Source of the DNA: Chondrosia reniformis
Taxonomy: Eukaryota > Porifera > Demospongiae > Chondrillida > Chondrillidae
DNA: 64,000 bases
Direction: 5' to 3'
NCBI GenBank assembly: GCA_947172415.1
Contig: OX359199.1
Span: forward strand, 1,018,001-1,082,000
Shown in pieces: positions 7,561-59,055 of the stretch. The notes under the pieces were generated by a model that was given only the letters and a program-made list of their open reading frames with translations, made no database searches and was not told the origin of the DNA. The stretch's first letter is position 1. Each line of letters starts with the position of its first letter. A program made the translations under genes and the position numbers.

Positions 7561-7564
7561 GCTT

Positions 7565-7916
7565 AACCCTTCAAACTGGCCCACCTCCTCAGGCTCTTCA
7601 AACTGGCCCACCTCCTCACTGTCCCACCTCCTCACTGTCCCACCTCCTCACTGGCCCACCTCCTCACTGGCCCACCTCCTCACTGTCCCACCTCCTCAGG
7701 CCTTTCAAACTGGCCCACCTCCTCACTGTCCCACCTCCTCACTGTCCCACCTCCTCACTGTCCCACCTCCTCAGGCCTTTCAAACTGGCCCACCTCCTCA
7801 CTGTCCCACCTCCTCACTGTCCCACCTCCTCAGGCCTTTCAAACTGGCCCACCTCCTCAGGCCCTTCAAACTGGCCCACCTCCTCAGGCCTTTCAAACTG
7901 GCCCACCTCCTCATTT
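7565..7916. repeat. Minisatellite, C/T-rich on + strand
   Basis: Two interleaved unit types alternate: a 16-bp unit (ACTGTCCCACCTCCTC) and a 27-bp unit that adds AGGCCTTTCAAACTGG before the same CCCACCTCCTC core. About 18 units are present. Several long frames are open through it on both strands only because the unit lacks stops; I do not regard them as genes. Confidence 0.9.
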
Positions 7917-8258
7917 TAACTCTTTCAAACTACCCTGCCCCCAAAGCCTTATGTCATAACAAACAAATATGCAAGTCAGGTAGCTAGCTAGCTAGCTGTA
8001 AGCACGTTCTTATCCTGCTGAATGAGCACATCAGAGCATGGTAGCACACTCTAAAAGAGAGTTGGCCAAAATTATCAATTCCAAAATTCATTTCAAGTTA
8101 GGAGGGTCCTTCTGTTAAGAGGTTGGATGATTTAAAGAATTGCTTGGAACCTATATTACACGTGTACTTCTTTGTTTAAAATATATTTTTTCAAACTATA
8201 ATCAAACAAAGTAGTGAAATATGTAGCTGGATTTTCCCTTCTTCCTTTTTTTGATGTG

Positions 8259-23558: not shown

Positions 23559-23585
23559 TTTATTCTCCTTCAAAATGGCAGCTAA
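23541..23585. promoter_or_regulatory. Shared ABITRAM / death-domain gene start region with YY1-like motifs
   Basis: The minus-strand ABITRAM start codon (23556-23558) and the preferred plus-strand start (23575-23577) are 16 bp apart. The interval contains GCGGCCATTTT and CAAAATGGC, which resemble the YY1 motif often found straddling start sites of TATA-less genes. Transcription of the two genes must therefore overlap or begin within a few tens of bases. Confidence 0.5.
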
Positions 23586-24552
23586 GAGGAAAGAAGGTGA
23601 AATTAGATCTATTTTCATATGCTACACTGCCATCCTACCTACTGTCATTGAACTGAGTGACACCGCAGAACGTTTAGATTTATCTTTAGTCAAAAGAGTT
23701 GAAGATTTCATTTCTTTATTAATCAAGAGTGGTGTCCCCAAATCAAAGATTACCACAAGTGATCAGGCAAGCTTGGATGAGCAGAAAAATAAACCCTTGT
23801 GGTTGGAAAATGAGATAATGAAAGCAGACCTCATATTTTGTGTAATAACCCCTCATTTCCATGAAGTTGCTACAAAAGGTATTGATGAGGTTGGTAGGCA
23901 TACGACAATCAGTGCTACTGCACCTAATAGTTCCCACCAGTCACTTGTCAACAAACAAGTAAAGTATGGCCTCCCTGGTCATATCTTGCGGAATCTAATT
24001 AATTATTCTGGTGTCATTTTTGTTCCCATTTTCCTTGGAGGAGAAAACGATACAAAATCTATTCCTTTGATGTTGCGTGGGAAAAGATGTTTTGTATTAC
24101 CTTATCCATTCAATGTAGAAAGAGTTGAAGATTCAAATAACTTGGATTTAAGAGATCTTTTTGCTCAAATTACAGGACAAAGAATTTCTACTCCCTTGAA
24201 ATTAACTGATGATATCCATCATGAAGAATCACTTTCAAACTCTTTATATCATGATTCTAGAAATATTATTGAATTGGCAAATAAGAATAGTATATTCCTG
24301 CGATTAGCATCAAAGATGGCTCTTCCTTGGGATGGTCTGGCTGCCCAGCTGGGTCTCTCTATACAAGACATTGCAACACTAAAGTACAACTTTCCAACTG
24401 ATGTTAGAGAACAGTGTTATCAAATGTTGCTGAAATGGGAGCAGGATCATGCTACCATAACAACCATCTCTAGGCTCACTAGAGCTATATCTAAGTGCCC
24501 TGAACAGCTACATCTTTTAAATATTTTGTTTGATCTGCTAAATAAAAATTAA
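23575..24552 (+). CDS. SEFIR/TIR-like plus death domain adaptor, intronless
   Basis: A single-exon gene of 325 aa. Residues about 10-190 look like a SEFIR or TIR domain: an opening strand (SIFICYT), an alternating helix/strand pattern, a WLENEIMKADLIFCVITP segment, and a later strand VIFVPIFLGGE followed by IPLML. Residues about 238-318 are a death domain, with LASKM, WDGLAAQLGLS, IATLKYN, a mid-domain MLLKWEQ and a final helix. This combination suggests an intracellular adaptor downstream of IL-17-like, Toll-like or death receptors. The domain order is the reverse of MyD88 (death then TIR). An upstream in-frame ATG at 23548 would add nine residues and overlap the ABITRAM coding exon by 11 bp; I prefer 23575 because it has A at -3 and G at +4. 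The death domain call is strong, the N-terminal domain call moderate. Confidence 0.75.
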   Translation: MAAKRKEGEIRSIFICYTAILPTVIELSDTAERLDLSLVKRVEDFISLLIKSGVPKSKITTSDQASLDEQKNKPLWLENEIMKADLIFCVITPHFHEVATKGIDEVGRHTTISATAPNSSHQSLVNKQVKYGLPGHILRNLINYSGVIFVPIFLGGENDTKSIPLMLRGKRCFVLPYPFNVERVEDSNNLDLRDLFAQITGQRISTPLKLTDDIHHEESLSNSLYHDSRNIIELANKNSIFLRLASKMALPWDGLAAQLGLSIQDIATLKYNFPTDVREQCYQMLLKWEQDHATITTISRLTRAISKCPEQLHLLNILFDLLNKN

Positions 24553-24940
24553 TATTGAAATTGAAATTTTAGAGAATGAAATAAATGAAATACACATACA
24601 ATTTATATATGTGACTGGTGTATTGTAGTAGTATAATGGTCTATATCATTCGCTTATCTGAACAAATATATGTGTATTCTTCAATAAGTTCTATGAATGG
24701 TCTGTGGGGGAGGATTTACGTGATGGCTGGATAGTCATCCTTCTTTGAGCAGTGTAGATATATAACTTGTAATATATGTGTATTATATGTTCATAAATCC
24801 GTATGTTACCATAGTTATGCAGACAGATAGCCTATGGTAATTCCATTTTGCATTTTTTAGTAACCTCAAACTTAAGACAGCTGGAGCATCAAGTCACGTG
24901 ACGTTAGGCAACCGACAAGACAATAGCAGTACAGTTGATT

Positions 24941-26149
24941 ATGAATGCGTTATTTAGGCGAATATCAAAACTGCTAATAGTCTTTATATTAATATTCTCC
25001 GTGTGTCAGTTCCTTGTATCAGTATTCCACTGGACCACTACATCCTCTCCGCCTCCCATTGTCCTGAAAGATAATTTTCCATCAAGCTATGAAGAGGTAA
25101 TATTTTTGAAATCAAGAAAAAAATATCATCCGAGACAGAATAAGGAGATTACAGTTAAAACAGCCAATCACCAATCGCCTGAAGAGCCAGCATCATCGGC
25201 AATATTTTTAGCCCAATCAACTCGAGGTTCGAGTAATGACAAATCAGTAAAAGAGACAATACAATCTTTAACAAGAGAAGCCTCGCAACCGAAGCTACCG
25301 AACGAGCCTATTTCTCGTTCAAACAACAATGCACTGCCTCTTTTAGCAGCTAAATTTCCTAAAGTTATCATCATTGGATTCGGGAAGAGTGGTACTCGCA
25401 CGCTCTACGATTTCCTCCTAAGGCACCCATCCTTAACGGGTCCCAGAACAGAGCTAAGATACTTTAGCAATCATTTTGAGAAAGGTCTTACATGGTACCT
25501 TTCAATGTTCCCCTCTCCATCAGGTGGAGCGGTTACCATGGAGAAGAGTCCAGATTACATCATCAAGCCGCTAGTCCCAGGGAGACTGATCAACACAGCC
25601 TCAAGACTAAATGTTGATGTGCACTCTTTAAAGTTTGTAGTCATGCTGCGTGACCCGATTAACAGGGCCATGTCTGAGTATCTAGAATGGGCAGCGCTGA
25701 GGAATCACAAACACGACACACCTCTGCCGCCATTTTCAGATATGGTGTATGATGATTCTAAGCATATCAAACTGAAACAAGTACCTTTCTTGAATGCCAG
25801 TGCCTATGCATACCATTTAGAAAATTGGCTTAAACGTTTTTCTTCTTCACAAATGTGTTATGTGGATGGCGATGCCTTTGTGAAGGATCCATTACCAGTT
25901 ATGCAATCCTTGGAGAAATGTCTCAATATTTCATCTTATTTTAGGAGGGGGCATTTTGTTTATGTTCCTGAAAGAGGATTTTACTGTTTCAAAACTGACT
26001 TTGGCGGAAGGTTTTGTGAAAATAAGTCAAAAGGTCGACCTCACCCTCCTCTCTCAAAGGAGCTGGAACTGGACCTTCGGAAGGTATACAAGTCTTATGA
26101 TGGCTGGTTATCAAAGATTATTAATCAAAACTTCACTTGGATGCGTTGA
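24941..26149 (+). CDS. Heparan sulfate 3-O-sulfotransferase-like, intronless
   Basis: A 402-aa type II membrane enzyme: a short cytoplasmic end, a TM helix at about residues 9-28, a stem region to about 130, then a sulfotransferase domain. The PAPS-binding 5'-PSB loop is GFGKSGTRTL (about 146-155) and the 3'-PSB segment is LRDPINRAMSEY (about 236-247). The substrate-side EKSPDY, the VDGDAFVKDPLP segment, and the C-terminal RGFYCF...KGRPHP pattern match HS3ST-family enzymes rather than NDST or tyrosylprotein sulfotransferases. Members transfer sulfate from PAPS to the 3-OH of glucosamine in heparan sulfate in the Golgi. The start is the first in-frame ATG. The lack of introns is notable but also seen in HS3ST1-type genes. 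Confidence 0.85.
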   Translation: MNALFRRISKLLIVFILIFSVCQFLVSVFHWTTTSSPPPIVLKDNFPSSYEEVIFLKSRKKYHPRQNKEITVKTANHQSPEEPASSAIFLAQSTRGSSNDKSVKETIQSLTREASQPKLPNEPISRSNNNALPLLAAKFPKVIIIGFGKSGTRTLYDFLLRHPSLTGPRTELRYFSNHFEKGLTWYLSMFPSPSGGAVTMEKSPDYIIKPLVPGRLINTASRLNVDVHSLKFVVMLRDPINRAMSEYLEWAALRNHKHDTPLPPFSDMVYDDSKHIKLKQVPFLNASAYAYHLENWLKRFSSSQMCYVDGDAFVKDPLPVMQSLEKCLNISSYFRRGHFVYVPERGFYCFKTDFGGRFCENKSKGRPHPPLSKELELDLRKVYKSYDGWLSKIINQNFTWMR

Positions 26150-44361: not shown

Positions 44362-47001
44362 ATGAGCATCACAAGGGTAGATTTTCTTACATACTTACTT
44401 GTTTTCAGCCTACTTGGATTTAGTGGTGGATCACTGAAGGATATCAAGAGACCTTCGACTGTTGATCCAAAGCTTGACTGTGCTATCAGAGAATTGGCGT
44501 GGGAATATGCCAAGAAACTTCAGCCTCAAAGAGGAGACTTCAAATCTGCTTACGATGCCTTGAGGTTGAAAGAATGTGGAACGCATCGCAGTAAACACCA
44601 ACAGGGAGGTCGTAACTTTGTATCTCCACAGCTTAGTGCTAGTACCCTGATTGTGTATGCGGACAGCGAGCGAGGGAGAGACGATAACCCAGGAACCCTT
44701 GACAAGCCGGTAAAGTCTCTACAAAGGGCCGTCGAATTAACCAGAAGTACCTCACCGCCTGGATCGCCAAAGGTGATATTCTTGCGCGAAGGAACATTCT
44801 TCCTCGACAAGCCTATTCTACTCGAGGAGGAAGACAGTTTTCTGACAATATCTAGTTACAAAGGCGAACATGCCATCGTGAGTGGAGGAAAGAGATACAA
44901 CTTCACTTGGACGCAACACGTTAGAGAAATGCAAAGTCCTGTAGCTGGCTATAGCTTTGTAAACGACATAGAGACTATACGGGAGCAAGGGATGGTGAAG
45001 GCCTATGGTACAGTGTCTTCTACGTCTGAATGTGCGGCTGTATGTAGAGATGACAGTCACTGCTTTGCATACACACACTTTACAAAGACTTCCGATGTTC
45101 ATCCAAATCAGTGTTTCTTAAGAGTGGGCGGTTTTGTCAGTAGAAAAAGATGTACGTCCTGTACCAGTGGCAGAAAGGTCAACATTGTCTCCACTGACCT
45201 CTCAACCCAGAGCCCAAATGTGTTCACCTCTCTCTTCATTAATGGCAGGCGAGCAGTGCGAGCCAGATATCCTGATGGCAACCCAGAGACTACAGGTCTC
45301 TACACCAACAACACTGGGTATGTCAACAAGGCTGATGCCTGGCTTGCCCCCCAAAAATATCCCCCTGCTGTGGAGATCAACATTGAGGTGCCAAAGAGAA
45401 ATGGAACTCATTTTCCTTTATTTCAAGTAGGCCTGGGAGGACCTGTGGAAATGTTCAATCCTCCGCAGTCCTACTGGGGACAGAGGGCACCAAACGGAGG
45501 TGTCACTTATGAGGTTCCCAGTGGCTTGGAATATCCCTCTGATGTAGACTTTGTCAACCGAACATGGAGTAACCCTGACACTGGAATAGTGCATGCATTT
45601 CATGGGAGACACTGGGGAAACTGGTTATTTAAACTTGCTGATAGGGACATGGACTTGAGATACTTAACTTTTGGATCGGGAGGTTTTCAGGAGGCAAGGG
45701 GCTGGCCAGAGGGTGCTGAATGGTATGTGGAAAATATTTTTGAAGAATTGGACTCACCCGGGGAGTGGTTCTACAACCAATCTACCAAAACCCTGTACTT
45801 GTATCCTAATGGCTCGCTACCAACTGAAGGCATAGGAACCAATCTCGAATCCCTGATTGAGATACGTGGATCAATGGACTCTCCAGTGGTCAACGTTACT
45901 CTACTGAACCTTGAATTTGCTCACAGTGCTACCACCTTCCTCTCAGACTACGAGGTACCCAGCGGGGGAGACTGGTCTGTACATCGTGGAGGTACTGTGT
46001 TTGTAGAGGGAACGAAAAAGTTTCTCTTACAAAACTGTCTCTTTAATGCTCCGGGAGGGAATGGCTTATGTCTGAGTGGCTATAACAGAAATGCTGTTAT
46101 TGAAGGAAATGAGTTTGTATGGAGTGGAGATAGTGGAATAGTTGCAGTTGGCACCTCAGAGCACATTGATGGGACTTTGGGCACACAGCCAAGAGGGAAC
46201 AAGATTATTGGTAATCTTGTCCATGAGAACGGTGTCTTTGGCAAACAGACCTCTGCCTATATGCAAGCACTGGCCTGTCAGACAGAGTTGATTGGTAATG
46301 TATTTTTCAATGGTCCTCGTGCAGGAATCAATTTTAATGATGGTTTTGGGGGAGGAAATTTACTAAAGAATAATCTGTTATTTAATCATGTTCGTGAGAC
46401 TTTAGAGCATGGTCCGTTCAACTCCTGGGATCGCTTGCCTTACCTTACGGATGTTAAAACAGGAACAGCTTCACTGATGCCTGCCCTCTCCAATGTGACT
46501 GGAAACTTTATAATCAACACCTATAACTCCTTCTTTCCAATTGATCACGACGATGGCTCCTGTTACTATTTAGACACATACAACTATTTAATCTATGGTG
46601 GCTACAAGAATTATTTGGGTCACAGCAAGACGGTGCAGAACAATGTGTATGTCTATCCGGATACAAGTCATAATCCATTCTGTGCGATCAGTAATGCGGC
46701 AAGTCGAGACTATCTACCCTCAGGTTGGGGGGAGGTGTACAGCAACAACACCTGCTTGATTGGAAATCCAAACATTTACCAGTTTGGGTCATGTAATCTG
46801 GATGATCCCGAAGGATTAATCCCTCTTACAGCCTTTAATAAATTTTATGCGCCAAATAAGGATGTCTACATCGAGTGTCAAGGTGCTGAGCTCTCCCTTT
46901 ACGCCTTTCAGAAGCTGGGCTATGATAAGGGATCCACCGTGTCTGATCCAGTGGACACAGCAACTGTCATCAAGTGGGGGAAAGATTTACTAGGAATGTA
47001 G
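44362..47001 (+). CDS. Secreted beta-helix/PAN protein, copy 1, intronless
   Basis: A single-exon gene of 879 aa. An N-terminal signal peptide (FLTYLLVFSLLGFSGG) is followed by a conserved STVDPKLDCAIRELAW segment. The first beta-helix strands begin at about residue 100 (LIVYADSERGRDDNPGTLDK, then KVIFLREGTFFL). A PAN/Apple-like insert with several cysteines spans about 215-275 (SECAAVCRDDSHCFAYTHF ... QCFLRVGGF). Then comes an RRAVRARYPDG block typical of right-handed parallel beta-helix carbohydrate-active proteins, followed by many Asn/Gly-rich helix turns (NAVIEGNEF, NKIIGNLV, GNVFFNGP, NNLLFNH). It probably binds or cleaves polysaccharide outside the cell; no lyase catalytic set can be named. 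The upstream ATG used by copies 2 and 3 is lost, so translation should start at 44362. It differs from copies 2 and 3 at shared positions such as GWPEGAEW, so it branched first. Confidence 0.8.
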   Translation: MSITRVDFLTYLLVFSLLGFSGGSLKDIKRPSTVDPKLDCAIRELAWEYAKKLQPQRGDFKSAYDALRLKECGTHRSKHQQGGRNFVSPQLSASTLIVYADSERGRDDNPGTLDKPVKSLQRAVELTRSTSPPGSPKVIFLREGTFFLDKPILLEEEDSFLTISSYKGEHAIVSGGKRYNFTWTQHVREMQSPVAGYSFVNDIETIREQGMVKAYGTVSSTSECAAVCRDDSHCFAYTHFTKTSDVHPNQCFLRVGGFVSRKRCTSCTSGRKVNIVSTDLSTQSPNVFTSLFINGRRAVRARYPDGNPETTGLYTNNTGYVNKADAWLAPQKYPPAVEINIEVPKRNGTHFPLFQVGLGGPVEMFNPPQSYWGQRAPNGGVTYEVPSGLEYPSDVDFVNRTWSNPDTGIVHAFHGRHWGNWLFKLADRDMDLRYLTFGSGGFQEARGWPEGAEWYVENIFEELDSPGEWFYNQSTKTLYLYPNGSLPTEGIGTNLESLIEIRGSMDSPVVNVTLLNLEFAHSATTFLSDYEVPSGGDWSVHRGGTVFVEGTKKFLLQNCLFNAPGGNGLCLSGYNRNAVIEGNEFVWSGDSGIVAVGTSEHIDGTLGTQPRGNKIIGNLVHENGVFGKQTSAYMQALACQTELIGNVFFNGPRAGINFNDGFGGGNLLKNNLLFNHVRETLEHGPFNSWDRLPYLTDVKTGTASLMPALSNVTGNFIINTYNSFFPIDHDDGSCYYLDTYNYLIYGGYKNYLGHSKTVQNNVYVYPDTSHNPFCAISNAASRDYLPSGWGEVYSNNTCLIGNPNIYQFGSCNLDDPEGLIPLTAFNKFYAPNKDVYIECQGAELSLYAFQKLGYDKGSTVSDPVDTATVIKWGKDLLGM

Positions 47002-47367
47002 TAACTATATTATTTTGATAACACACACAGAGAGAATGTTAAACACTTTAAGAAGAAAAAAATTGTAATTAATAGCAAATTTGATTTCATTATATTATTT
47101 CATAAATAGATTTAGGGTCTTCTATATAATTATAACATCATTGTATTTTGATTTGTTATATAATAGTGTTGTTGATCCAATGCTTGATTGTGCCATCACT
47201 ATATTGGTACCGTATACGTACGCTTTTACCCTAATGAAAAGTGTACTGTATTAGAAGTGTACAGACGAATTTTGACACAAATATCCCCTTCATAATTATA
47301 TACGTATATCACCAACAAACTACGACAAGCGACCTGCCGTATTGGTACCTACAATAGAATCTATAAT

Positions 47368-50028
47368 ATGGCTGGCACCATATGCATGAGCATCAAAAGG
47401 GTAGATTTTCTTACATACTTACTTGTTTTCAGTCTACTTGGATTAAGTGGTGGATCACTGAAGGATATCAAGAGACCTTCGACTGTTGATCCAAAGCTTG
47501 ACTGTGCTATCAGAGAATTGGCGTGGGAATATGCCAAGAAACTTCAGCCTCAAAGAGGAGACTTCAAATCTGCTTACGATGCCTTGAGGTTGAAAGAATG
47601 TGGAACGCATCGCAGTAAACACCAACAGAGAGGTCGTAACTTTGTATCTCCACAGCTTAGTGCTAGTACTCTGATTGTGTATGCGGACAGCGAGCGAGGG
47701 AGAGACGATAACCCAGGAACCCTTGACAAGCCGGTAAAGTCTCTACAAAGGGCCGTCGAATTAACCAGAAGTACCTCACCGCCTGGATCGCCAAAGGTGA
47801 TATTCTTGCGCGAAGGAACATTCTTCCTCGACAAGCCTATTCTACTCGAGGAGGAAGACAGTTTTCTGACAATATCTAGTTACAAAGGCGAACATGCCAT
47901 CGTGAGTGGAGGAAAGAGATACAACTTCACTTGGACACAACACGTTAGAGAAATGCGAAGTCCTGTAGCTGGCTATAGCTTTGTAAACGACATAGAGACT
48001 ATACGGGAGCAAGGGATGGTGAAGGCCTATGGTACAGCGTCTTCTACGTCTGAATGTGCGGCTGCATGTAGAGATGACAGTCACTGCTTTGCATACACAC
48101 ACTTTACAAAGACTTCCGATGTTCATCCAAATCAGTGTTTCTTAAGAGTGGGCGGTTTTGTCAGTAGAAAAAGATGTACGTCCTGTACCAGTGGCAGAAA
48201 GGTCAACATTGTCTCCACTGACCTCTCAACCCAGAGCCCAAATGTGTTCACCTCTCTCTTCATTAATGGCAGGCGAGCAGTGCGAGCCAGATATCCTGAT
48301 GGCAACCCAGAGACTACAGGTCTCTACACCAACAACACTGGGTATGTCAGCAAGGCTGATGGCTGGCTTGCCCCCCAAAAATATCCACCTGCTGTGGAGA
48401 TCAACATTGAGGCACCACAGAGAAATGGAACTCATTTTCCTTTATTTCAAGTAGGCCTGGGAGGACCTGTGGAAATGTTCAATCCTCCGCAGTCCTACTG
48501 GGGACAGAGGGCACCAAACGGAGGTGTCACTTATGAGGTTCCCAGTGGCTTGGAATATCCCTCTGATGTAGACTTTGTCAACCGAACATGGAGTAACCCT
48601 GACACTGGAATAGTGCATGCATTTCATGGGAGACACTGGGGAAACTGGTTATTTAAACTTGCTGATAGGGACGAGGACTTGAGATACTTAACTTTTGGAT
48701 CGGGAGGTTTTCAAGAGGCAAGGGGGTCTAGAGGGGGTGCTGAATGGTATGTGGAAAATATTTTTGAAGAATTGGACTCACCCGGGGAGTGGTTCTACAA
48801 CCAATCTACCAAAACCCTGTACTTGTATCCTAATGGCTCGCTACCAACTGAAGGCATAGGAACCAATCTTGAATCCCTGATTGAGATACGTGGATCAACG
48901 GACTCTCTAGTGGTCAATGTTACTCTACTGAACCTCGAATTTGCTCACAGTGCTACCACCTTCCTCTCAGACTATGAGGTACCCAGCGGGGGAGACTGGT
49001 CTGTGCATCGTGGAGGTACTGTGTTTGTAGAAGGAACTAAAAAGTTTCTCTTACAAAACTGTCTCTTTAATGCTCCGGGAGGGAATGGCTTATGTCTGAG
49101 TGGCTATAACAGAAATGCTGTTATTGAAGAAAATGAGTTTGTATGGAGTGGAGATAGTGGGATAGTTGCCTTGGGTACCTCGGAGCACATTGACGGTACC
49201 CTAGGCAACCAGCCAAGAGGAACCAAAATCATGCGCAATCTTGTCCATGAGAACGGTGTCTTTGGCAAGCAGACCTCTGCCTATATGCAAGCACTGGCCT
49301 GTCAGACTGAGTTGATTGATAATGTATTCTTCAATGGTCCTCGTGCAGGAATCAATTTTAATGATGGTTTTGGGGGAGGAAATTTACTAAAGAATAATCT
49401 GTTATTTAATCATGTTCGTGAGACTCAAGATCATGGCCAGTTCAACTCCTGGGATCGCTTGCCTTACCTTACGGATGTTAAAACAGGAACAGCTTCATTG
49501 ATATCTGCCCTCTCCAATGTGACTCAAAACTTTATAATCAACACCTATAACTCCCTTTATCCGATTGATCACGACGATGGCTCCTGTTACTATTTAGACA
49601 CATACAACTATTTAATCTATGGTGGCTATAAGAATCATTTGGGTCACAGCAAAACGGTGCAGAACAATGTATATGTCTATCCGGATACAAATCCTGGCAA
49701 GCCATTCTGTGGTGTCTGTACTGGAGCAAGTCGAGACCATCTACCTTCAGGTTGGGGGGAGGTGTACAGCAACAACACCTGCTTGATTGGAAATCCAAAC
49801 ATTTACGAGTTTGGGTCATGTAATCTGGATGATCCCAAAGGATTAATCCCTTTTACGGCCTTTAATAAATTTTATGCACCAAATAAGGATGTCTACATCG
49901 AGTGTCAAGGTGCTGAGCTCTCCCTTTACGCCTTTCAGAAGCTGGGCTATGATAAGGGATCCACCGTGTCTGATCCAGTGGACACAGCAACTGTCATCAA
50001 GTGGGGGAAAGATTTACTTGGAATGTAG
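47368..50028 (+). CDS. Secreted beta-helix/PAN protein, copy 2, intronless
   Basis: 886 aa, collinear with copy 1 over the whole length without indels beyond the N-terminal extension (MAGTICMSIKR). It shares RGSRGGAEW, GTLGNQPRGTKIM and RETQDHGQFNSW with copy 3 against copy 1, so copies 2 and 3 are sisters. The 3' flank repeats that of copy 1 for about 160 bp, to 50189. The frame is fully open, and most differences from its siblings are scattered single-residue changes, as expected for recent duplicates still under selection or homogenised by gene conversion. Confidence 0.8.
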   Translation: MAGTICMSIKRVDFLTYLLVFSLLGLSGGSLKDIKRPSTVDPKLDCAIRELAWEYAKKLQPQRGDFKSAYDALRLKECGTHRSKHQQRGRNFVSPQLSASTLIVYADSERGRDDNPGTLDKPVKSLQRAVELTRSTSPPGSPKVIFLREGTFFLDKPILLEEEDSFLTISSYKGEHAIVSGGKRYNFTWTQHVREMRSPVAGYSFVNDIETIREQGMVKAYGTASSTSECAAACRDDSHCFAYTHFTKTSDVHPNQCFLRVGGFVSRKRCTSCTSGRKVNIVSTDLSTQSPNVFTSLFINGRRAVRARYPDGNPETTGLYTNNTGYVSKADGWLAPQKYPPAVEINIEAPQRNGTHFPLFQVGLGGPVEMFNPPQSYWGQRAPNGGVTYEVPSGLEYPSDVDFVNRTWSNPDTGIVHAFHGRHWGNWLFKLADRDEDLRYLTFGSGGFQEARGSRGGAEWYVENIFEELDSPGEWFYNQSTKTLYLYPNGSLPTEGIGTNLESLIEIRGSTDSLVVNVTLLNLEFAHSATTFLSDYEVPSGGDWSVHRGGTVFVEGTKKFLLQNCLFNAPGGNGLCLSGYNRNAVIEENEFVWSGDSGIVALGTSEHIDGTLGNQPRGTKIMRNLVHENGVFGKQTSAYMQALACQTELIDNVFFNGPRAGINFNDGFGGGNLLKNNLLFNHVRETQDHGQFNSWDRLPYLTDVKTGTASLISALSNVTQNFIINTYNSLYPIDHDDGSCYYLDTYNYLIYGGYKNHLGHSKTVQNNVYVYPDTNPGKPFCGVCTGASRDHLPSGWGEVYSNNTCLIGNPNIYEFGSCNLDDPKGLIPFTAFNKFYAPNKDVYIECQGAELSLYAFQKLGYDKGSTVSDPVDTATVIKWGKDLLGM

Positions 50029-51020
50029 TAACTATATTATTTTGATAACACACACAGAGAGAGAATGTTAAACACTTTTAGAAGAAAAAAGTTGTAATTA
50101 ATAGCAAATTTGATTTCATTATTTCATAAATAGATTTAGGGTCTTCTATATAATTATAACATCATTGTATTTTGATTTGTTATATAATATTAATGTATTC
50201 CACTTGATCAATGCCTACACCTACCTTGACCCGTAACTTGAAGCTCTAATGCACACCTGTTTCCACCTTCCTTGCCACGTACCAGGGTTGGAAAACCTTT
50301 TAGCCTATGCATATCTATGCATTGAGCTGGCGGAAGGCCAGGGTATGCAGTATGTCAACTAAACACTGTTTTTTAGGAGTTGCCATTGCTGGTGCACCCC
50401 TTACCTTTAAAGCCAGCCATGCTATTTATCAAAATACTCCCAAATGTGACGAGAGAAGTGCACCGGGTGCAAATACTTTAAGGACTGTAGATCTATTTAG
50501 GCATGGCCATACAATATGAATGTACCTATGTATACGACACCCTGTGCCTGAGAGCAACAGGCATCCTTTGAAATAACTAGAGTCTGGCCTATAGAAGTGT
50601 CCATGCTCAGGTTCCCAGCCTATACCGTATACCTACCAGGTAAGAGGGTGACCGCTTCAAGCATAAATTTACCACCCCTAGAAGCTTTGGGGTTAAGGTG
50701 CTAACCGCATACTGCCATGAGTCAGACCCGAACATTTGTGAAGGGGAGACTCCCCCAAAGCATAAAGACACAATATAACTACATCTAGCTCCAACAGAAA
50801 TTGAATTGACTTGACTGATTAGAGACTACGCCTTACAGACTAACTGTATGGCGAATAATAACATAGCAATCAAATTATAATAACTGGGCCTTTGACCCTG
50901 AACAGTAATGTAAGATACATCTATACATATATACTACATACGTACGTATATAAAAGTTAATATATATATACCACGAGTGTAAGTGTAACAGGTTATATAG
51001 TACATTTTTTTTTTTTTTTT

Positions 51021-52004
51021 TTAAATTGGGGAATGAGCTAGTACTGATGAGACAGATGCCAGTTCCTCCCTTGAGGTCTGCAGATAGCATTGATAGGCCG
51101 AACTCTCCCAACGGCCCAGCATCTTGATTTTTGCATCGGACACCCCTGCTTTGAGAGCGGTCGTTGCAGCCCCTATTCTAAAGCTATGGCCTGTATAATG
51201 GCTAGCGTCAATACCGGCCACAGAGAGAGCTTTTTGCATTTCTTCAACCAGCCGGACCCTAGTTAATGGACTAGCATCCTTGAAGGTGAAGAGAGGGCCA
51301 TCATGTGGACCTCGCAATACAAGGTAATCAAGGAGCGCTGAGACTGGACACAGGTCAGTGCCTGTCTTGGAGAGAAAGATAGAAACTCCTTTTGCGAATG
51401 GGTCTGTCTTTGACTGTTTAATCTTGATGGCTAACCTGGAAACTGTCTGGGTAGATCGTGAGAATGAAACGTCAGAAAGCGAAAGGTGCCGAGCCCTATC
51501 ATAAGAGCTAGCAGATGGTACTGTAAACTCAGCACAACGAAGGAATCCGAAAAATCCAAGACAGGCTGCTGCCCAAAATAAGCGATTGGAATATGAGTTT
51601 GGATTCGTGCTCCAGACCCTCTTCAACTTGCGAAGGACTGATGGCGTGATTGGGAGGCGGGATCTGACTAGCACACCACGGTTGGCCTTAAATCTCTTAA
51701 TACCTCTAAGGACTAGCTCAACTCTTGGTGAGTAAAGTGTAACGGAGAATAAACCCAAGTTAATTAGGAGGTTACGGATTGCAGATAGGTATAATCTGAT
51801 GGTTGATACTGCTAAACCATCTTCCCCCAACTGAGATATAAATAATAGAATAGTATTCTCTGTTGGGGGATCAGAAGGGAGTTTATATTTGCTGCAAAAA
51901 TCTAAAAATCGTTTTTGGCCTGAACTATATGCCTTTTTTGTAGTGGTGGCTAAGCCATAAGAATAGAATTTCTGAAGAGCGACCTCCACCGGTTTGATAT
52001 CCAA
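51021..52004 (-). CDS. Tyrosine recombinase of the DIRS-like element
   Basis: The 3'-most part of the element. The C-terminal half carries the phage-integrase-type HSFRIGAATTA, a GRW segment and a terminal tyrosine in YQCYLQ, the hallmark that separates DIRS-type elements from LTR retrotransposons. It overlaps the end of the reverse transcriptase region, and an A-rich run (minus strand) follows directly. Treated as a fossil element part. Confidence 0.8.
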   Translation of the reverse strand: MDIKPVEVALQKFYSYGLATTTKKAYSSGQKRFLDFCSKYKLPSDPPTENTILLFISQLGEDGLAVSTIRLYLSAIRNLLINLGLFSVTLYSPRVELVLRGIKRFKANRGVLVRSRLPITPSVLRKLKRVWSTNPNSYSNRLFWAAACLGFFGFLRCAEFTVPSASSYDRARHLSLSDVSFSRSTQTVSRLAIKIKQSKTDPFAKGVSIFLSKTGTDLCPVSALLDYLVLRGPHDGPLFTFKDASPLTRVRLVEEMQKALSVAGIDASHYTGHSFRIGAATTALKAGVSDAKIKMLGRWESSAYQCYLQTSREELASVSSVLAHSPI

Positions 52005-53836
52005 TCTGGTCTTTCCAGTACTAGCAAGGACCAGAGAGGGATTGGGATTGGGGTGGGTTCTGCACTGAGGGTGGGGACCTGAGAATAAACGCAGGATAAT
52101 GTGTTACGTGAAATGCCATCGGCTAATGTATTATGTATGCCAGCAACATGACAAGTGGCTAGGGTAAATTTATAGTAAGCTGAGAAGAAAGATAGGCATC
52201 TCAAGAGGTGCATCACCACCCCTGAGGGTTCCTTGGAGGACCCTTTCTTGATGACTTGAACTACAGATGAGTTATCTATGTGGAACTGAACATGATGCCC
52301 AGACCATTGGCTACCCCACATAGCACAAGCGAGGACCACAGGGACCAATTCTTTTACCATAATGTTCACTGATTCCCACTCTAAAGGCCATTGTCCTTGT
52401 AACCACAAGTTGCCCCAGAGTGCCCCGCAACCGAACGTGCCTGATGCGTCAGTGAATACATTCATGGATGGGACCACCTGCTGCGTCAGGTTGAGAAATG
52501 TGATTCCATTCCAGGAATCTACAAAGGTTGACCACCAAGCTAAATCAGATCGGAAGTCTACATTAAGGCGAATGTGGTGGTGGGGTGCCCTTGGAATTGA
52601 CAACAAGTTGATCATCCTTCTTAAAAAAGGCCGACCCTGAGGAACTACCCTACAAGCAAATTGTAGAACGCCTATTAAATGTTCCAGCTCATTTCTAGTA
52701 CATGATTTTTTAGCCTGCCAACTAGTAAGCTCCCTTTGCAAGCGTGAGAGTTTGTCTGCAGGCAGGCGGGCTTGCATTTTTTCTGTGTCGATTTGGATAC
52801 CTAAAAATGTTAGGCTAGTTGTTGGACCCTCTATCTTCTCCATTGCCAAAGGTACACCCAATTGCGTGCAGATGGCCATAATGGAGTTGAGAGAATGCTG
52901 ACATTCGGGTGTAGCTGGAGACCCAACCACCAGGAAATCATCTAAATAATGAAGTATATTGAGCATTCCCTGCTTCCTAAAGATCCACTCTAGTGCATCC
53001 GCATATGCATTGAATAGGAGTGGGGCAGACCGCAACCCGAATGGCAACTGATTATCAATAAACACTTTGTTCTTCCACTGCATGCCCAGAAGGTACCGAT
53101 CAGCTGGATGGACAGGGATAATCCTAAATGCCGAAGCAACATCGATTTTTGCCAACAAAGCCGACTTCCCGAGGCCCAGAATTAAACGAGCTGCATCCTC
53201 AATAGAGGAATAAACCATGCTAGAGTCAGCCTTGGCAATGCCATCATTAACACTAGAGCCCTTAGGGTATGAGAGGTCTACGATCAACCTCCATTTACCA
53301 GGCTTATTGGCTTTTGGAATCACTCCAAAACGGTTTAGAATAACAGAATTTGGTATTAACTTGGGGTCAAATGGACCAGCAATGTTACCTTGGGCCAGCT
53401 CCTCATCCAAGTAGTGCTCAACCACTGAGGGATGACATATGGCTGACTGCATGTTCGACTTGGCAGACCTGCAGGAAGCCTTCTGGTCGAAACCAATTCT
53501 AACCCCTTCCTCCAGACCAGACAGCAATTGACCAACCCAGGCTTTATTTGGGTGATCAGCCAACATAACTGAAAAGACTTCAACTTTTAGTGGCGAATGT
53601 ACCTTTATGGCTGAGCTGGGCAACACAGATGGACTTACGCTGCGACGCCCTTCGTTCTGGAGACGAAGGAACCGGGTGGCTAGCAATGGAGACATACGGA
53701 AGCACGTTGGCAGCACGGGGGAGACATTTGTACCTATATGTGGATATGTATGAGGACTATTACGGACGAAAGCGCCGAATAATTCACTATATATATTATA
53801 ATGATGACTATAGATAAGTGTAATAAATGAATACAA
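51950..53836 (-). CDS. Reverse transcriptase-RNase H of the DIRS-like element
   Basis: It shows the RT fingers/palm pattern (LPFGLRSAPLLFN, then the YLDDFLVVG active-site box) followed by an RNase H region (FTDASGTFGCGALW, HIDNSSVV). No DUF1891-like methyltransferase region was seen between RNase H and the recombinase, which leans towards Ngaro-like rather than DIRS1-like. Treated as a fossil element part. Confidence 0.8.
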   Translation of the reverse strand: MYSFITLIYSHHYNIYSELFGAFVRNSPHTYPHIGTNVSPVLPTCFRMSPLLATRFLRLQNEGRRSVSPSVLPSSAIKVHSPLKVEVFSVMLADHPNKAWVGQLLSGLEEGVRIGFDQKASCRSAKSNMQSAICHPSVVEHYLDEELAQGNIAGPFDPKLIPNSVILNRFGVIPKANKPGKWRLIVDLSYPKGSSVNDGIAKADSSMVYSSIEDAARLILGLGKSALLAKIDVASAFRIIPVHPADRYLLGMQWKNKVFIDNQLPFGLRSAPLLFNAYADALEWIFRKQGMLNILHYLDDFLVVGSPATPECQHSLNSIMAICTQLGVPLAMEKIEGPTTSLTFLGIQIDTEKMQARLPADKLSRLQRELTSWQAKKSCTRNELEHLIGVLQFACRVVPQGRPFLRRMINLLSIPRAPHHHIRLNVDFRSDLAWWSTFVDSWNGITFLNLTQQVVPSMNVFTDASGTFGCGALWGNLWLQGQWPLEWESVNIMVKELVPVVLACAMWGSQWSGHHVQFHIDNSSVVQVIKKGSSKEPSGVVMHLLRCLSFFSAYYKFTLATCHVAGIHNTLADGISRNTLSCVYSQVPTLSAEPTPIPIPLWSLLVLERPDWISNRWRSLFRNSILMA

Positions 53837-54065
53837 TTAGATTGGTGGTTAGCCTGCTAACCTGTGTGTATATACAATAGTATAATAATTTTATATAAGG
53901 TGAGTTGCAATTAGTATAATTAAATTAATGTCCTCCATGAGGTTGTTTTACAGATAAATTCTAACAAGCAAAAGGTTGCTTTGACTATCTATCATGGAAA
54001 TACATGCTATAATAGCGATTAAAGCGTTATGATGATGCATGCATTTCTAAGTTCTGCCCTAAATG

Positions 54066-54899
54066 TTATTGGGCAGTTGGGCCCTTCTTTACTGCATGGC
54101 TCGCAGAGCCTGTGGTGTGTTTTTGCCCGGACGGACAGGCTGATGCCCTATGCTGGGGGCTTAGGCAAGTGGAGCAAGCATGGTTGAACTTGCATGCCTT
54201 GAACGGACAGAAGGTGCCCTCATTCCACCTATCACAGGTGGCTGAATTTGGGGCCCTCCTTTTCTGAGGCAGTTGGCTGGACTGGACCGGTTGAGCAGCT
54301 TTTACTGTGCTAAGTGCCCATACTTCCTGGTCCAGCTTGTTCCATTTTATTGATGGATCTGCCACCACATTAGCCCTAAATGCCCTTTCGTAAGCGGCCC
54401 AGGCCAATCCCGGGTGGTCCCTGGCTAGCCTTGCGACAGTCCCGACAAAAGTCAAAAGTTCCCCACCAATGGAAGAATTGACAGACAACAGGGCTTGGCT
54501 GTATGTACAAAAGGCCAACACCCAATCAACAAACTTGTCAATAGCAGGGGCCTTCTTTTTCTTTCCATCAGGGTAGAGGAAAGACTCCTGAATCCTTTCA
54601 GGTAATAGTTCAGACAACTCCACATAAGACTTGCTTTGGATTCTTTTTAAAATATCAGATGGAATGGCCGGTAGCCCGCCACCCAGGACAAGGCCAGCAA
54701 TGGGCTTTTCAGTACTAGATACAGTATTAGGAGTGCTGGCAGCAGTGGTGTTGGAGGTGCTTCCACTGCCACTGGCTTTTCCTTGAGATACAGAGATCTC
54801 ACTGGTAGTACCACCTGAGGGACCTGCCAAGAGTGCAGAAACAGGCTCAAACCCGGACAGAGTAGCCTCATTTGACACTGCAAAAGGAAAAGTAAACAA
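54066..54899 (-). CDS. Gag-like region of the DIRS-like element
   Basis: The 5' region has a Ser/Thr-rich leader, a helical core, and a C-terminal cysteine/histidine cluster (CPFKACKFNHACSTC) like the zinc-finger end of DIRS-type gag proteins. A splice-acceptor-like pyrimidine tract precedes it. Treated as a fossil element part. Confidence 0.6.
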   Translation of the reverse strand: MFTFPFAVSNEATLSGFEPVSALLAGPSGGTTSEISVSQGKASGSGSTSNTTAASTPNTVSSTEKPIAGLVLGGGLPAIPSDILKRIQSKSYVELSELLPERIQESFLYPDGKKKKAPAIDKFVDWVLAFCTYSQALLSVNSSIGGELLTFVGTVARLARDHPGLAWAAYERAFRANVVADPSIKWNKLDQEVWALSTVKAAQPVQSSQLPQKRRAPNSATCDRWNEGTFCPFKACKFNHACSTCLSPQHRASACPSGQKHTTGSASHAVKKGPTAQ

Positions 54900-55142
54900 C
54901 CCAAAAATTGAATGGAGCTACCAACCTTTGTCTTGCAACCTTTACAGATTGCTAGAATAGTGTATACCTTGCAGCTATATACACCCAAGGGGAGTAAACT
55001 GCTAAATAACCCTACATGTACATGGCCAGAGAAGAACATAAGGCTCGTGACTATATATAGAAGCACTATATATCTGTAACCAACGCATGCCCAGCCGAAA
55101 CTGCCACTTGAGGCCTAACTGCCCCTGCCAAAAGACCGCTAC

Positions 55143-55555
55143 TCGAGGCATAAACCACATCTGCCACCACTCGAGGCATAACCCACACCTGCCAAGAGAC
55201 CACCACTCGAGGCATAAACCACACCAGCCAAGAGACCACCACTCGAGGCATAACCCACACCTGCCAAGAGACCACCACTCGAGGCATAAACCACACCAGT
55301 CAAGAGACCACTACTCGAGGCATAAACCACATCTGCCACCACTCGAGGCATAACCCACACCTGCCAAGAGACCACCACTCGAGGCATAAACCACACCAGC
55401 CAAGAGACCACCACTCGAGGCATAACCCACACCTGCCAAGAGACCACCACTCGAGGCATAAACCACACCAGTCAAGAGACCACTACTCGAGGCATAAACC
55501 ATATCTGCCACCACTCGAGGCATGACCCACACCTGCCAAGAAGCCCCCACACGAG
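55143..55555. repeat. Minisatellite with 172-bp higher-order period
   Basis: 36-bp units (CACTCGAGGCATAAACCACA ...) are arranged as four 36-bp units plus one 28-bp variant, repeated with a 172-bp period; the variant recurs at about 55149, 55321 and 55493. It lies upstream of the gag-like region, within the 6-kb insertion. Confidence 0.9.
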
Positions 55556-55560
55556 GCAGT

Positions 55561-55635
55561 GATTTTTTTTTATTTTATTTTTTTTTATTTTTTATTTTTT
55601 ATTTTTAATTTTTTTTTTTTTATTTTTTTTTTTTT
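55561..55635. repeat. T-rich low-complexity tract
   Basis: About 75 bp almost entirely of T with scattered A, directly after the 172-bp-period minisatellite. Confidence 0.95.
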
Positions 55636-56394
55636 AAACTAACATTTGCCGAGAAACCACCTCTCAAGTTAACTGAGTCCCTTAAACCAGTTTGAAGTAC
55701 AAACCCACACCAAAAAAAAAATAAAAAATAAAAATCACCAACAGCCCTATATAATTATCTAATTATATGTAGAACTAACAACAGACAGTAAACATGAAGC
55801 GAACCGAGAAACCTGTGACCAATGGCACTAGCGTCGCGTATACAATTCGCTATAGTACAGGCTCGCGCTCTAACGCTCGAACGCAGAACACTTCGATAGC
55901 TGTGGACCTGTATCTATATATATTAGAAAACTGTTACTAAGGTGTCTAATGTTAACGTTGCTATGTAAGAGATGCAGCTGCATTTTTTGTGTTCAAATAC
56001 AGTAATTGATTTATATCTCTTTGTATAGCTGTGTATATCTCTATATAGTATGGCCCTAGTATATAGCAGCGCCAAATGGCAGCCATGTTCCTTGCTGATT
56101 CCCCTTATTTAACTATAAAAATTGCCCATTGACATAGCGCTCCATACATTAACTCTGTTTAACGTTAATGTTTTATGTTAAACATCATGTGTTGTTGATC
56201 CAATGCTTGATTGTGCAATCACTATATTGGTACAGTATACGTACGCTTTTACTCTAATGAAAAGTGTACTGTACTAGAAGTGCACAGACGAATTTTGACA
56301 ACTAATCTCCCCTTCATAATTATATACGTATATCACCAACAAACTGTGACAAGGGACCTCCCGTATTTGGTCTACCTACGATAGAATCTGTAAT

Positions 56395-59055
56395 ATGGCT
56401 GGCACCATATGCATGAGCATCAAAAGGGTAGATTTTCTTACATACTTACTTATTTTCAGTCTACTTGGATTTAGTGGTGGATCACTAAAGGATATCAAGA
56501 GACCTTCGACTGTTGATCCAAAGCTTGACTGTGCTATCAGAGAATTGGCGTGGGAATATGCCAAGAAACTTCAGCCTCAAAGAGGAGACTTCAAATCTGC
56601 TTACGATGCCTTGAGGTTGAAAGAATGTGGAACGCATCGCAGTAAACACCAACAGAGAGGTCGTAACTTTGTATCTCCACAGCTTAGTGCTAGTACCCTG
56701 ATTGTGTATGCGGACAGCGAGCGAGGGAGAGACGATAACCCAGGAACCCTTGACAAGCCGGTAAAGTCTCTACAAAGGGCCGTCGAATTAACCAGAAGTA
56801 CCTCACCGCCTGGATCGCCAAAGGTGATATTCTTGCGCGAAGGAACATTCTTCCTCGACAAGCCTGTTCTTCTCGAGGAGGAAGACAGTTTTCTGACAAT
56901 ATCTAGTTACAAAGGCGAACATGCCATCGTGAGTGGAGGAAAGAGATACAACTTCACTTGGACACAACACGTTAGAGAAATGCGAAGTCCTGTAGCTGGC
57001 TATAGCTTTGTAAACGACATAGAGACTATACGGGAGCAAGGGATGGTGAAGGCCTATGGTACAGCGTCTTCCACGTCTGAATGTGCGGCCGCATGTAGAG
57101 ATGACAGTCACTGCTTTGCATACACACACTTTACAAAGACTTCAGATGTTCATCCAAATCAGTGTTTCTTAAGAGTGGGCGGTTTTGTCAGTAGAAAAAG
57201 ATGTACTTCCTGTACCAGTGGCAGAAAGGTCAACATTGTCTCCACTGACCTCTCAACCCAGAACCCAAATGTGTTCACCTCTCTCTTCATTAATGGCAGG
57301 CGAGCAGTGCGAGCCAGATATCCTGATGGCAACCCAGAGACTACAGGTCTCTACACCAACAACACTGGATATGTCAGCAAGGCTGATGCCTGGCTTGCCC
57401 CCCAAAAATATCCACCTGCTGTGGAGATCAACATTGAGGTGCCAAAGAGAAATGGAACTCATTTTCCTTTCTTTCAAGTAGGCCTGGGAGGACCTGTGGA
57501 AATGTTCAATCCTCCGCAGTCCTACTGGGGACAGAGGGCACCAAACGGAGGTGTCACTTATGAGGTTCCCAGTGGCTTGGAATATCCCTCTGATGTAGAC
57601 TTTGTCAACCGAACATGGAGTAACCCTGACACTGGAATAGTGCATGCATTTCATGGAAAACACTGGGGGAACTGGTTATTTAAACTTGCTGATAGGGACG
57701 AGGACTTGAGATACTTAACTTTTGGATCGGGAGGTTTTCAAGAGGCAAGGGGGTCTAGAGGTGGTGCTGAATGGTATGTGGAAAATATTTTTGAAGAATT
57801 AGACTCACCCGGGGAGTGGTTCTACAACCAATCTACCAAAACCCTGTACTTGTATCCTAATGGCTCGCTACCAACTGAAGGCATAGGAACCAATCTTGAA
57901 TCCCTGATTGAGATACGTGGATCAATGGACTCTCCAGTGGTCAATGTTACTCTATTGGACCTCGAATTTGCTCACAGTGCTACCACCTTCCTCTCAGACT
58001 ACGAGGTACCCAGTGGGGGAGACTGGTCTGTACATCGTGGAGGTACTGTGTTTGTAGAAGGAACTAAAAAGTTTCTCTTACAAAACTGTCTCTTTAATGC
58101 TCCGGGAGGGAATGGCTTATGTCTGAGTGGCTATAACAGAAATGCTGTTATTGAAGGAAATGAGTTTATATGGAGTGGAGATAGTGGGATAGTTGCCTTG
58201 GGTACCTCGGAGCACATTGACGGTACCCTAGGCAACCAGCCAAGAGGTACCAAAATCATGTGCAATCTTGTCCATGAGAACGGTGTCTTTGGCAAACAGA
58301 CCTCTGCCTATATGCAAGCACTGGCCTGTCAGACAGAGTTGATTGGTAATGTATTCTTCAATGGTCCTCGTGCAGGAATCAACTTTAATGATGGTTTTGG
58401 GGGAGGAAATTTACTAAAGAATAATCTGATATTTAATCATGTTCGTGAGACTCAAGATCATGGCCAGTTCAACTCCTGGGATCGCTTGCCTTACCTTACG
58501 GATGTTAAAACAGGAACAGCTTCATTGATATCTGCCCTCTCCAATGTGACTCGAAACTTTATAATCAACACCTATAACTCCCTTTATCCGATTGATCACG
58601 ACGATGGCTCCTGTTACTATTTAGACACATACAACTATTTAATCTATGGTGGCTACAAGAATTATTTGGGTCACAGCAAGACAGTGCAGAACAATGTATA
58701 TGTCTATCCGGATACAAATCCTATCAAGCCATTCTGTGGTGTCTGTAATGGAGCAAGTCGAGACTATCTACCCTCAGGTTGGGGGGAGGTGTACAGCAAC
58801 AACACCTGCTTGATGGGAAATCCAAACATTTACCAGTTTGGGTCATGTAATCTGGATGATCCCGAAGGATTAATCCCTTTCACAGCCTTTAATAAATTTT
58901 ATGCGCCAAATAAGGATGTCTATATCAAGTGTCAAGATGCTGAGCTCTCCCTTTACGTCTTTCAGAAGCTGGGCTATGATAAGGGATCCACCGTGTCTGA
59001 TCCAGTGGACACAGCAACTGTCATCAAGTGGGGGAAAGATTTACTTGGAATGTAG
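56395..59055 (+). CDS. Secreted beta-helix/PAN protein, copy 3, intronless
   Basis: 886 aa, same domain order as copies 1 and 2: signal peptide, STVDPKLDCAIRELAW segment, beta-helix start, PAN/Apple-like insert, long Asn/Gly-rich helix. It is closest to copy 2 and shares about 200 bp of 5' flank with it. The 3' flank diverges from both siblings right after the stop codon. A poly(A) signal at about 59143 lies only about 20 bp from the stop of the convergent CCDC167 gene. Confidence 0.8.
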   Translation: MAGTICMSIKRVDFLTYLLIFSLLGFSGGSLKDIKRPSTVDPKLDCAIRELAWEYAKKLQPQRGDFKSAYDALRLKECGTHRSKHQQRGRNFVSPQLSASTLIVYADSERGRDDNPGTLDKPVKSLQRAVELTRSTSPPGSPKVIFLREGTFFLDKPVLLEEEDSFLTISSYKGEHAIVSGGKRYNFTWTQHVREMRSPVAGYSFVNDIETIREQGMVKAYGTASSTSECAAACRDDSHCFAYTHFTKTSDVHPNQCFLRVGGFVSRKRCTSCTSGRKVNIVSTDLSTQNPNVFTSLFINGRRAVRARYPDGNPETTGLYTNNTGYVSKADAWLAPQKYPPAVEINIEVPKRNGTHFPFFQVGLGGPVEMFNPPQSYWGQRAPNGGVTYEVPSGLEYPSDVDFVNRTWSNPDTGIVHAFHGKHWGNWLFKLADRDEDLRYLTFGSGGFQEARGSRGGAEWYVENIFEELDSPGEWFYNQSTKTLYLYPNGSLPTEGIGTNLESLIEIRGSMDSPVVNVTLLDLEFAHSATTFLSDYEVPSGGDWSVHRGGTVFVEGTKKFLLQNCLFNAPGGNGLCLSGYNRNAVIEGNEFIWSGDSGIVALGTSEHIDGTLGNQPRGTKIMCNLVHENGVFGKQTSAYMQALACQTELIGNVFFNGPRAGINFNDGFGGGNLLKNNLIFNHVRETQDHGQFNSWDRLPYLTDVKTGTASLISALSNVTRNFIINTYNSLYPIDHDDGSCYYLDTYNYLIYGGYKNYLGHSKTVQNNVYVYPDTNPIKPFCGVCNGASRDYLPSGWGEVYSNNTCLMGNPNIYQFGSCNLDDPEGLIPFTAFNKFYAPNKDVYIKCQDAELSLYVFQKLGYDKGSTVSDPVDTATVIKWGKDLLGM

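Follow-up and report, generated by a model that had tools for sequence, protein, structure and literature searches.

The window, by which is meant the whole stretch of 64,000 nucleotides analysed here, comes from the sponge Chondrosia reniformis (GenBank assembly GCA_947172415.1, contig OX359199.1, positions 1,018,001 to 1,082,000 of the forward strand). Three near-identical, intact and uninterrupted genes lie in tandem on its forward strand and are called copies 1 to 3, copy 2 serving as the reference. They constitute a real, recently tripled family encoding a probable secreted glycoside hydrolase related to family GH141, with a PAN-like module in its interior. A summary of the genes and features is given in Table 1.

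Table 1. Genes and features of the locus, with coordinates in the window. Amino acid (aa) numbers refer to copy 2 unless another copy is named; pLDDT, predicted local distance difference test score of the structure model.
Feature	Coordinates	Strand	Description
Copy 1	44362..47001	+	879-aa beta-helix/PAN protein, single exon; predicted catalytic residues E682 and D730
Copy 2 (reference copy)	47368..50028	+	886-aa beta-helix/PAN protein, single exon
Copy 3	56395..59055	+	886-aa beta-helix/PAN protein, single exon; predicted catalytic residues D688 and D736
5' flank of copy 2	47166..47367	+	homologous to the flank of copy 3 (from 56189)
Putative signal peptide, aa 1-29	47368..47454	+	hydrophobic segment, read by eye from the sequence; helix at 11-24 in the model
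N-terminal extension, aa 30-100	47455..47667	+	two predicted helices, two Cys (46, 78)
First part of beta-helix, aa 101-195	47668..47952	+	pLDDT mostly above 90
PAN/Apple-like insertion, aa 196-288	47953..48231	+	six Cys: 230, 234, 240, 257, 270, 273
LFINGRRAVRARYPD segment, aa 289-311	48232..48300	+	common to the bacterial enzymes
Second insertion, aa 312-403	48301..48576	+	pLDDT mostly below 50
Main beta-helix, aa 404-852	48577..49923	+	GH141_M-like stretch (aa 457-488) and active-site-like positions; short tail after it
D688, predicted catalytic	49429..49431	+	copy 2; column of BT_1002 D523, inferred by alignment
D736, predicted catalytic	49573..49575	+	copy 2; column of BT_1002 D564, inferred by alignment
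Retroelement frames	51021..54917	-	tyrosine recombinase (PF00589), reverse transcriptase (PF00078), gag-like frame without Pfam match

Gene copies and duplication

Identity between copies 2 and 3 is 97.4% across 2870 nt, an alignment that takes in about 200 nt of 5' flank, and between copies 1 and 2 it is 96.2% across 2810 nt with about 160 nt of 3' flank; for copies 1 and 3 the value is 96.3% over 2649 nt. The pairwise ratios of nonsynonymous to synonymous change (dN/dS) among the three copies are 0.312, 0.267 and 0.303. Three open reading frames (ORFs) of this length are, in our judgement, far beyond chance, and their length, the presence of three intact copies and the dN/dS values rule out chance ORFs or pseudogenes. 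The original prediction had described three near-identical, uninterrupted genes that had undergone amplification; both points hold, and the identities and dN/dS values fit a recent event. Judged in this way, the tandem amplification to three copies is recent.

Copies 2 and 3 have their 5' flank in common and copies 1 and 2 their 3' flank, which is consistent with a duplicated tandem unit of about 3.02 kb. Homology extends to the 5' flank of copy 1, which has diverged to 82% and 73% identity in two stretches, and the bases shared in the 3' flank of copy 3 end within 12-15 of the stop codon. Differences of copy 1 from copies 2 and 3 are concentrated in the 3' half of the gene, a clustering that partial gene conversion would leave.

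Upstream of copies 2 and 3, at a distance of about 170-200 nt (47170-47198 and 56193-56221), lies a 29-nt stretch with 90% identity to nt 117-145 of the coding sequence, which belong to the N-terminal extension. It may be what is left of an earlier partial duplication, or a 5' exon since lost.

Protein fold and architecture

The Pfam model Beta_helix (PF13229) matched the three copies with scores of 29.3, 29.3 and 26.1 (cut-off 25.9). When the PDB was searched with the single sequence, the best match was 9rx2 (2.6e-12), and 5mqp, the GH141 enzyme BT_1002, was also retrieved (1.4e-5); a profile of 62 sequences matched 9rx2 (3.6e-69), 5mqp (3.7e-44) and the xylosidase 3vst (4.1e-10). Among the 62 aligned members, Beta_helix was matched by all and GH141_M, a Pfam model covering the insertion domain only, by 52 (E 0.01 or better); PDZ_2 was matched by two, within the stretches scanned.

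The structure of copy 2 was modelled with AlphaFold2 from an alignment of 62 out of 83 sequences (three animal, and 59 of the 80 bacterial), giving a predicted template modelling score (pTM) of 0.75 and a mean pLDDT of 69. The pLDDT exceeds 90 in the first part of the beta-helix and is mostly 70-98, with dips, in the main part. Foldseek placed chains of 5mqp at PDB ranks 1-4 (E 2.3e-22 to 2.0e-21, template modelling (TM) score by target 0.65-0.67). The fold is predicted to be a right-handed parallel beta-helix like that of BT_1002.

Three parts of the protein stand apart from this core. The N-terminal extension, modelled with pLDDT mostly below 50, gave no Pfam match when aa 27-108 were scanned and has no counterpart in the aligned bacterial relatives. 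The second insertion exceeds its bacterial counterparts in the aligned rows, some of which carry a shorter version and others none. The third is the PAN/Apple-like insertion. The RARYPDG-type segment pointed out earlier turned out to be part of the enzyme and not a module of its own: the aligned bacterial relatives read RARYPN or similar at this position, e.g. LFVNGKRQIRARYPN.

With whole proteins as queries, PAN_4, PAN_1 and PAN_2 all stayed under their Pfam cut-offs; the segment alone gave a weak match to PAN_2, scoring 21.5 (cut-off 21.1) for copies 2 and 3, while copy 1, at 20.9, fell short. Its cysteine pattern aligns, with weak scores, to Micronemal protein 4 (E 0.018) and coagulation factor XI (E 0.06). 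PAN_4 was matched by three of the 62 aligned proteins, namely the animal copies, and by none of the 59 bacterial ones; the insertion is not present in the ten bacterial relatives aligned. Near the start of the beta-helix, where a PAN module had been predicted, there is a PAN-like insertion with six cysteines, matched weakly and confined to the animal copies among the 62 proteins compared. The usual ligands of PAN modules are proteins or glycans. The insertion site falls between points aligned to residues 117 and 135 of the BT_1002 chain, which is the start of the stretch 109-295 described in the available text of PMC10154630 as an ancillary beta-sandwich domain; the numbering may differ by a few residues.

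Predicted active site

In the portions available of the respective papers, D523 and D564 of BT_1002 are reported as essential (PMC12786026), D523 as the putative nucleophile and D564 as the general acid/base (PMC10154630), and D540 and D577 are given for Xyn141E (PMC5593877). The link from the animal proteins to BT_1002 runs through L122, one of the outgroup proteins of the trees described below. Aligned to the BT_1002 chain, the aspartates of its motifs DMAGVYTLG and CDEGSS fall at chain positions 528 and 569, an offset of 5 that is assumed to be a difference in numbering; the pair is spaced by 41 residues, the same as D523 and D564.

Seven positions (D543, Q635, R659, H689, D736, D737 and K755) are identical in 46/46 bacteria of the GH141-related subfamily in the first rooted tree (see below) and in all three animal copies, and E685 is kept in 45 of these bacteria (one has D) and in the three copies. 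Column 688 holds D in 39 and E in 7 of the 46 bacteria; it is D in copies 2 and 3 and E in copy 1, where the Glu codon GAG stands at 46405-46407. Column 736 is D in ten out of ten outgroup paralogues and column 688 in nine; the tenth, which has a gap at 688, is truncated and aligns poorly in this region. The other seven active-site-like columns vary among the outgroups. Because the nine active-site-like positions are kept in the three animal copies, the three genes are predicted to encode active hydrolases.

It is unlikely that hydrolysis has been lost and that the beta-helix was kept for a secreted polysaccharide-binding or adhesive protein, such as a lectin-like component of the matrix or of immune recognition. 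The known ligands of PAN modules, the long animal branch in the trees and the Glu of copy 1 at a predicted catalytic position would suit such a role, but all nine positions are kept, Glu at that position also occurs in 7/46 bacteria, and dN/dS is low.

Relatives in sequence collections

The collections searched were bacterial and archaeal genomes, plasmids, phages and viral contigs, in which eukaryotes are hardly sampled. Searches with tblastn matched five of 72,556 plasmid records, with Phocaeicola (1e-45) and Persicobacter (2e-44) as the best, and none of 50,697 phage records. Bacterial and archaeal genome contigs, when scanned, yielded at least 522 relatives among at least 591 candidate stretches, of which the best 80 were kept; the first five matches belong to Acidobacteriaceae, Spirochaetales, Acidobacteriaceae, Verrucomicrobia and Paenibacillaceae. 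The best bacterial genome match had an E value of 5.0e-67, and wider bacterial sampling gave no closer donor, with matches in 2/199 and 1/198 genomes at an E limit of 1e-30, in 20/288 and 6/294 at 1e-40, and in 1/46, 1/150, 2/296 and 7/104 at 1e-50 (all counts except 2/296 include the centre genome). That the beta-helix is of bacterial type, as originally predicted, agrees with these results, the closest relatives in the prokaryotic collections searched being bacterial.

Three scans of viral contigs found no relative; in one of them 25 stretches fitted the pattern, none of which was a relative. A viral origin was rejected on these results, on the lack of a phage match and on TM scores by query of 0.30 or less in the 50 BFVD fold matches listed.

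Two observations on the bacterial side may be recorded. In loci of Wenyingzhuangia and Winogradskyella (L012-L015) a second family member, 25-29% identical, lies near the first, perhaps as part of a polysaccharide-use cluster. The bacterial genomes G009 and G007 have 12 and 9 places matching the protein, where one gene can give several, and an expansion of this kind of enzyme is likely in both.

Phylogeny and origin

Trees were calculated from rows hand-picked among 125 matching frames. The first tree had 69 rows, including the three animal copies, and no outgroup. For the first rooted tree (59 rows), 20 rows were removed (three of odd make-up, three paralogues, the rest for thinning) and ten outgroups (L120-L129) were added; for the second (54 rows), 11 were removed (three outgroups and eight bacteria) and six bacterial members added.

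The animal copies group with the subfamily against the outgroups with support of 100/100 (49 rows versus 10) and 100/99 (47 versus 7), and on this sequence evidence their membership of the GH141-related subfamily is firm. Both rooted trees place them after a first bacterial clade, with support of 94/79 and 93/84; in the first rooted tree this clade consists of rows from Acidobacteria, a Spirochaete, Bacillota and Verrucomicrobia. In the tree without outgroups, the copies together with a seven-row version of the same clade are split from the rest (99/86). Nesting of the animal copies among the subfamily bacteria is favoured by these trees.

The reading preferred here, with a probability of slightly under 60%, is that the genes encode secreted GH141-related glycoside hydrolases whose beta-helix is of bacterial stock, entered the animal lineage by a transfer long ago, later received the PAN insertion and was recently tripled in tandem. 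The working of the enzyme that we infer is as follows. After removal of the signal peptide the protein would be secreted, and a polysaccharide would be bound in the groove of the beta-helix, where a pair of acidic residues would hydrolyse a glycosidic bond; in copies 2 and 3 these are D688 and D736, and in copy 1 they are E682 and D730. The PAN module may anchor the enzyme to a glycan or protein, whether in the extracellular matrix, in mucus or on microbes. Substrates can only be guessed at; candidates are polysaccharides that are fucosylated, sulfated or otherwise acidic and come from food algae, associated microbes or the sponge's own matrix. Historically, the beta-helix would have come from bacteria into animals, and the PAN insertion would have followed the transfer and preceded the tandem duplication.

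Several results weigh against this reading. The animal branch is long in each of the three trees, at about 2.3 changes per column, so that the enzyme may have shifted in activity or substrate and its position is uncertain. Trees in which the subfamily bacteria stay together without the animal copies are worse by 2.6 and 2.7 log-likelihood units, and a position of the copies outside these bacteria is not rejected by the approximately unbiased (AU) test (p 0.122 and 0.162); a grouping of the copies with the first clade is likewise not rejected (p 0.327). At 45%, the coding G+C content is above that of the window's first 44 kb (36.5%). As to family and modules, GH141_M scored 22.6, 23.3 and 24.0 in the animal copies, below the cut-off of 27, an NCBIfam scan of copy 2, the one copy scanned, gave no match, and no characterised member of the GH141-related subfamily was found; the PAN match is weak, if consistent across copies, and lies in a region with pLDDT mostly below 50. 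Reports of GH141 from some fungi (available text of PMC10455118 and PMC6054980) mean that a eukaryotic branch exists, at least for GH141 at large.

Some of these points bear directly on a possible, if doubtful, alternative: that the genes belong to an old eukaryotic or opisthokont family passed on by vertical descent, intronless as a retrocopy or by intron loss, with no transfer into animals. The animal branch is deep as well as long and near no sampled bacterium, the AU test leaves room for it outside the subfamily bacteria, the bacterial rows aligned show no counterpart of the N-terminal extension or of the greater part of the second insertion, and the fungal reports fit as well. Vertical descent is opposed by the best rooted trees, which put the copies after the first bacterial clade, and by the lack of a eukaryotic relative among plasmids, phages and viral contigs, which hardly sample eukaryotes. 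Similar sequences presumably exist in other eukaryotes, which we take as a lead only.

Since the collections searched are prokaryotic or viral and GH141 has been reported from some fungi, acquisition from bacteria by the animal lineage is rated as plausible on the sequence comparisons. The original prediction of such an acquisition thus stands in so far as the trees favour nesting, and falls short in so far as the AU test does not reject the outside placement.

In a survey of prokaryotic genes in Amphimedon, glycosyl hydrolases are among the commonest domains of 227 transfer candidates, according to the available text (PMC4784904). The genes described here may be among those 227 candidates; the terms 'beta helix', 'parallel beta' and 'pectin lyase' do not occur in the main text of that paper, its tables being outside this statement. 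In the titles and opening lines of abstracts listed by the literature searches made here, no animal GH141-type or beta-helix/PAN enzyme is described.

Genomic neighbourhood

The observed/expected ratio of CpG is 0.46-0.48 in the copies; the window's first 44 kb give 0.39, and 80 whole bacterial loci a median of 1.05 (range 0.54-1.49). Depletion near the level of the window, unlike that of bacterial loci, makes residence in the animal genome look not recent. Six of the eight frames scanned at 8.5-55 kb carry Pfam domains (ALK glycine-rich, Death, sulfotransferase, Kelch, ankyrin, retroelement recombinase), and by these domains the neighbouring frames with Death, sulfotransferase, Kelch, ankyrin and ALK/LTK glycine-rich matches are of animal type.

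Bacterial contamination or an assembly artefact, such as alleles laid in tandem, is accordingly very improbable. The 96-97% identity of the copies and the difference in G+C content given above would fit it. It is contradicted by the frames with Pfam domains, by the retroelement between copies 2 and 3, by CpG depletion about as strong as in the window at large, by the PAN insertion and by flanks that differ from copy to copy; bacterial contamination was rejected on the neighbouring frames, the retroelement and the CpG depletion. A further mark of eukaryotic secretion, the number of N-glycosylation sequons (nine in copy 2), was dropped as an argument, because nine were also reached by 715 of 2000 shuffled sequences and by 8 of 80 bacterial proteins.

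The frames with a sulfotransferase domain (24908-26149) and a Death domain (23491-24552) are uninterrupted over 413 and 353 codons, respectively, from stop to stop. The description of the neighbourhood as intron-rich was therefore right only in part, and missing introns, offered as a sign of transfer, lose weight: other frames nearby are long and uninterrupted too, so that intron absence is weak evidence for transfer.

The retroelement separating copies 2 and 3 has three long open frames; by its make-up we take it to be DIRS-like, and it was perhaps active recently. Near it lies a tandem array of a unit of about 36 bp (55077-55558). Elsewhere in the window, repetitive stretches at 7473-7987 and 16664-17137 are open in several frames and are probably minisatellites giving false ORFs.

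Significance and comparison with known systems

If active, the proteins would be animal-encoded relatives of an enzyme family that one review, in its available text, counts as 98% bacterial among 1043 members (PMC10154630), with fungal members reported as well. They would make it possible to ask in what way an animal of this kind digests or shapes polysaccharides that are sulfated or microbial, and how enzymes gained by transfer come to carry binding modules of animal type. A direct test is offered by the predicted catalytic pair, in which one copy has Glu in place of Asp. More tentatively, the genes could represent an animal clade of polysaccharide hydrolases, anciently bacterial, with a PAN module inserted in the enzyme body and then amplified; the sponge would in that case employ a GH141-type enzyme of its own, possibly degrading fucans or microbial polysaccharides, instead of those of its microbes.

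Among known systems, GH141 BT_1002 (5mqp) is like the animal proteins in the predicted beta-helix, the GH141_M-like segment and the two catalytic Asp columns. From BT_1002, the endo-xylanase Xyn141E and the endo-fucanases Wf141_1 to Wf141_4, the animal copies differ by the PAN insertion, the longer second insertion and the N-terminal extension. The ten GH141-type outgroup proteins are 22-25% identical to the animal copies over the main segment. The bacterial GH141-related subfamily, which includes Persicobacter, Phocaeicola, Pedobacter, Verrucomicrobia, Acidobacteria, Paenibacillus and others, reaches 28-34% identity overall (59 bacterial rows) and 36-41% in the best segments of the better genome matches. 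Its active-site-like positions are alike, but the 59 members scanned lack a PAN match, and in the aligned rows such an N-terminal extension is absent and the second insertion shorter or missing. The 'Parallel beta-helix repeat protein' 9rx2 is the best PDB match by sequence and is absent among the 50 Foldseek matches listed. With the PAN/Apple domains of Micronemal protein 4 and coagulation factor XI the animal module has the cysteine pattern in common, and differs from them by sitting inside an enzyme.

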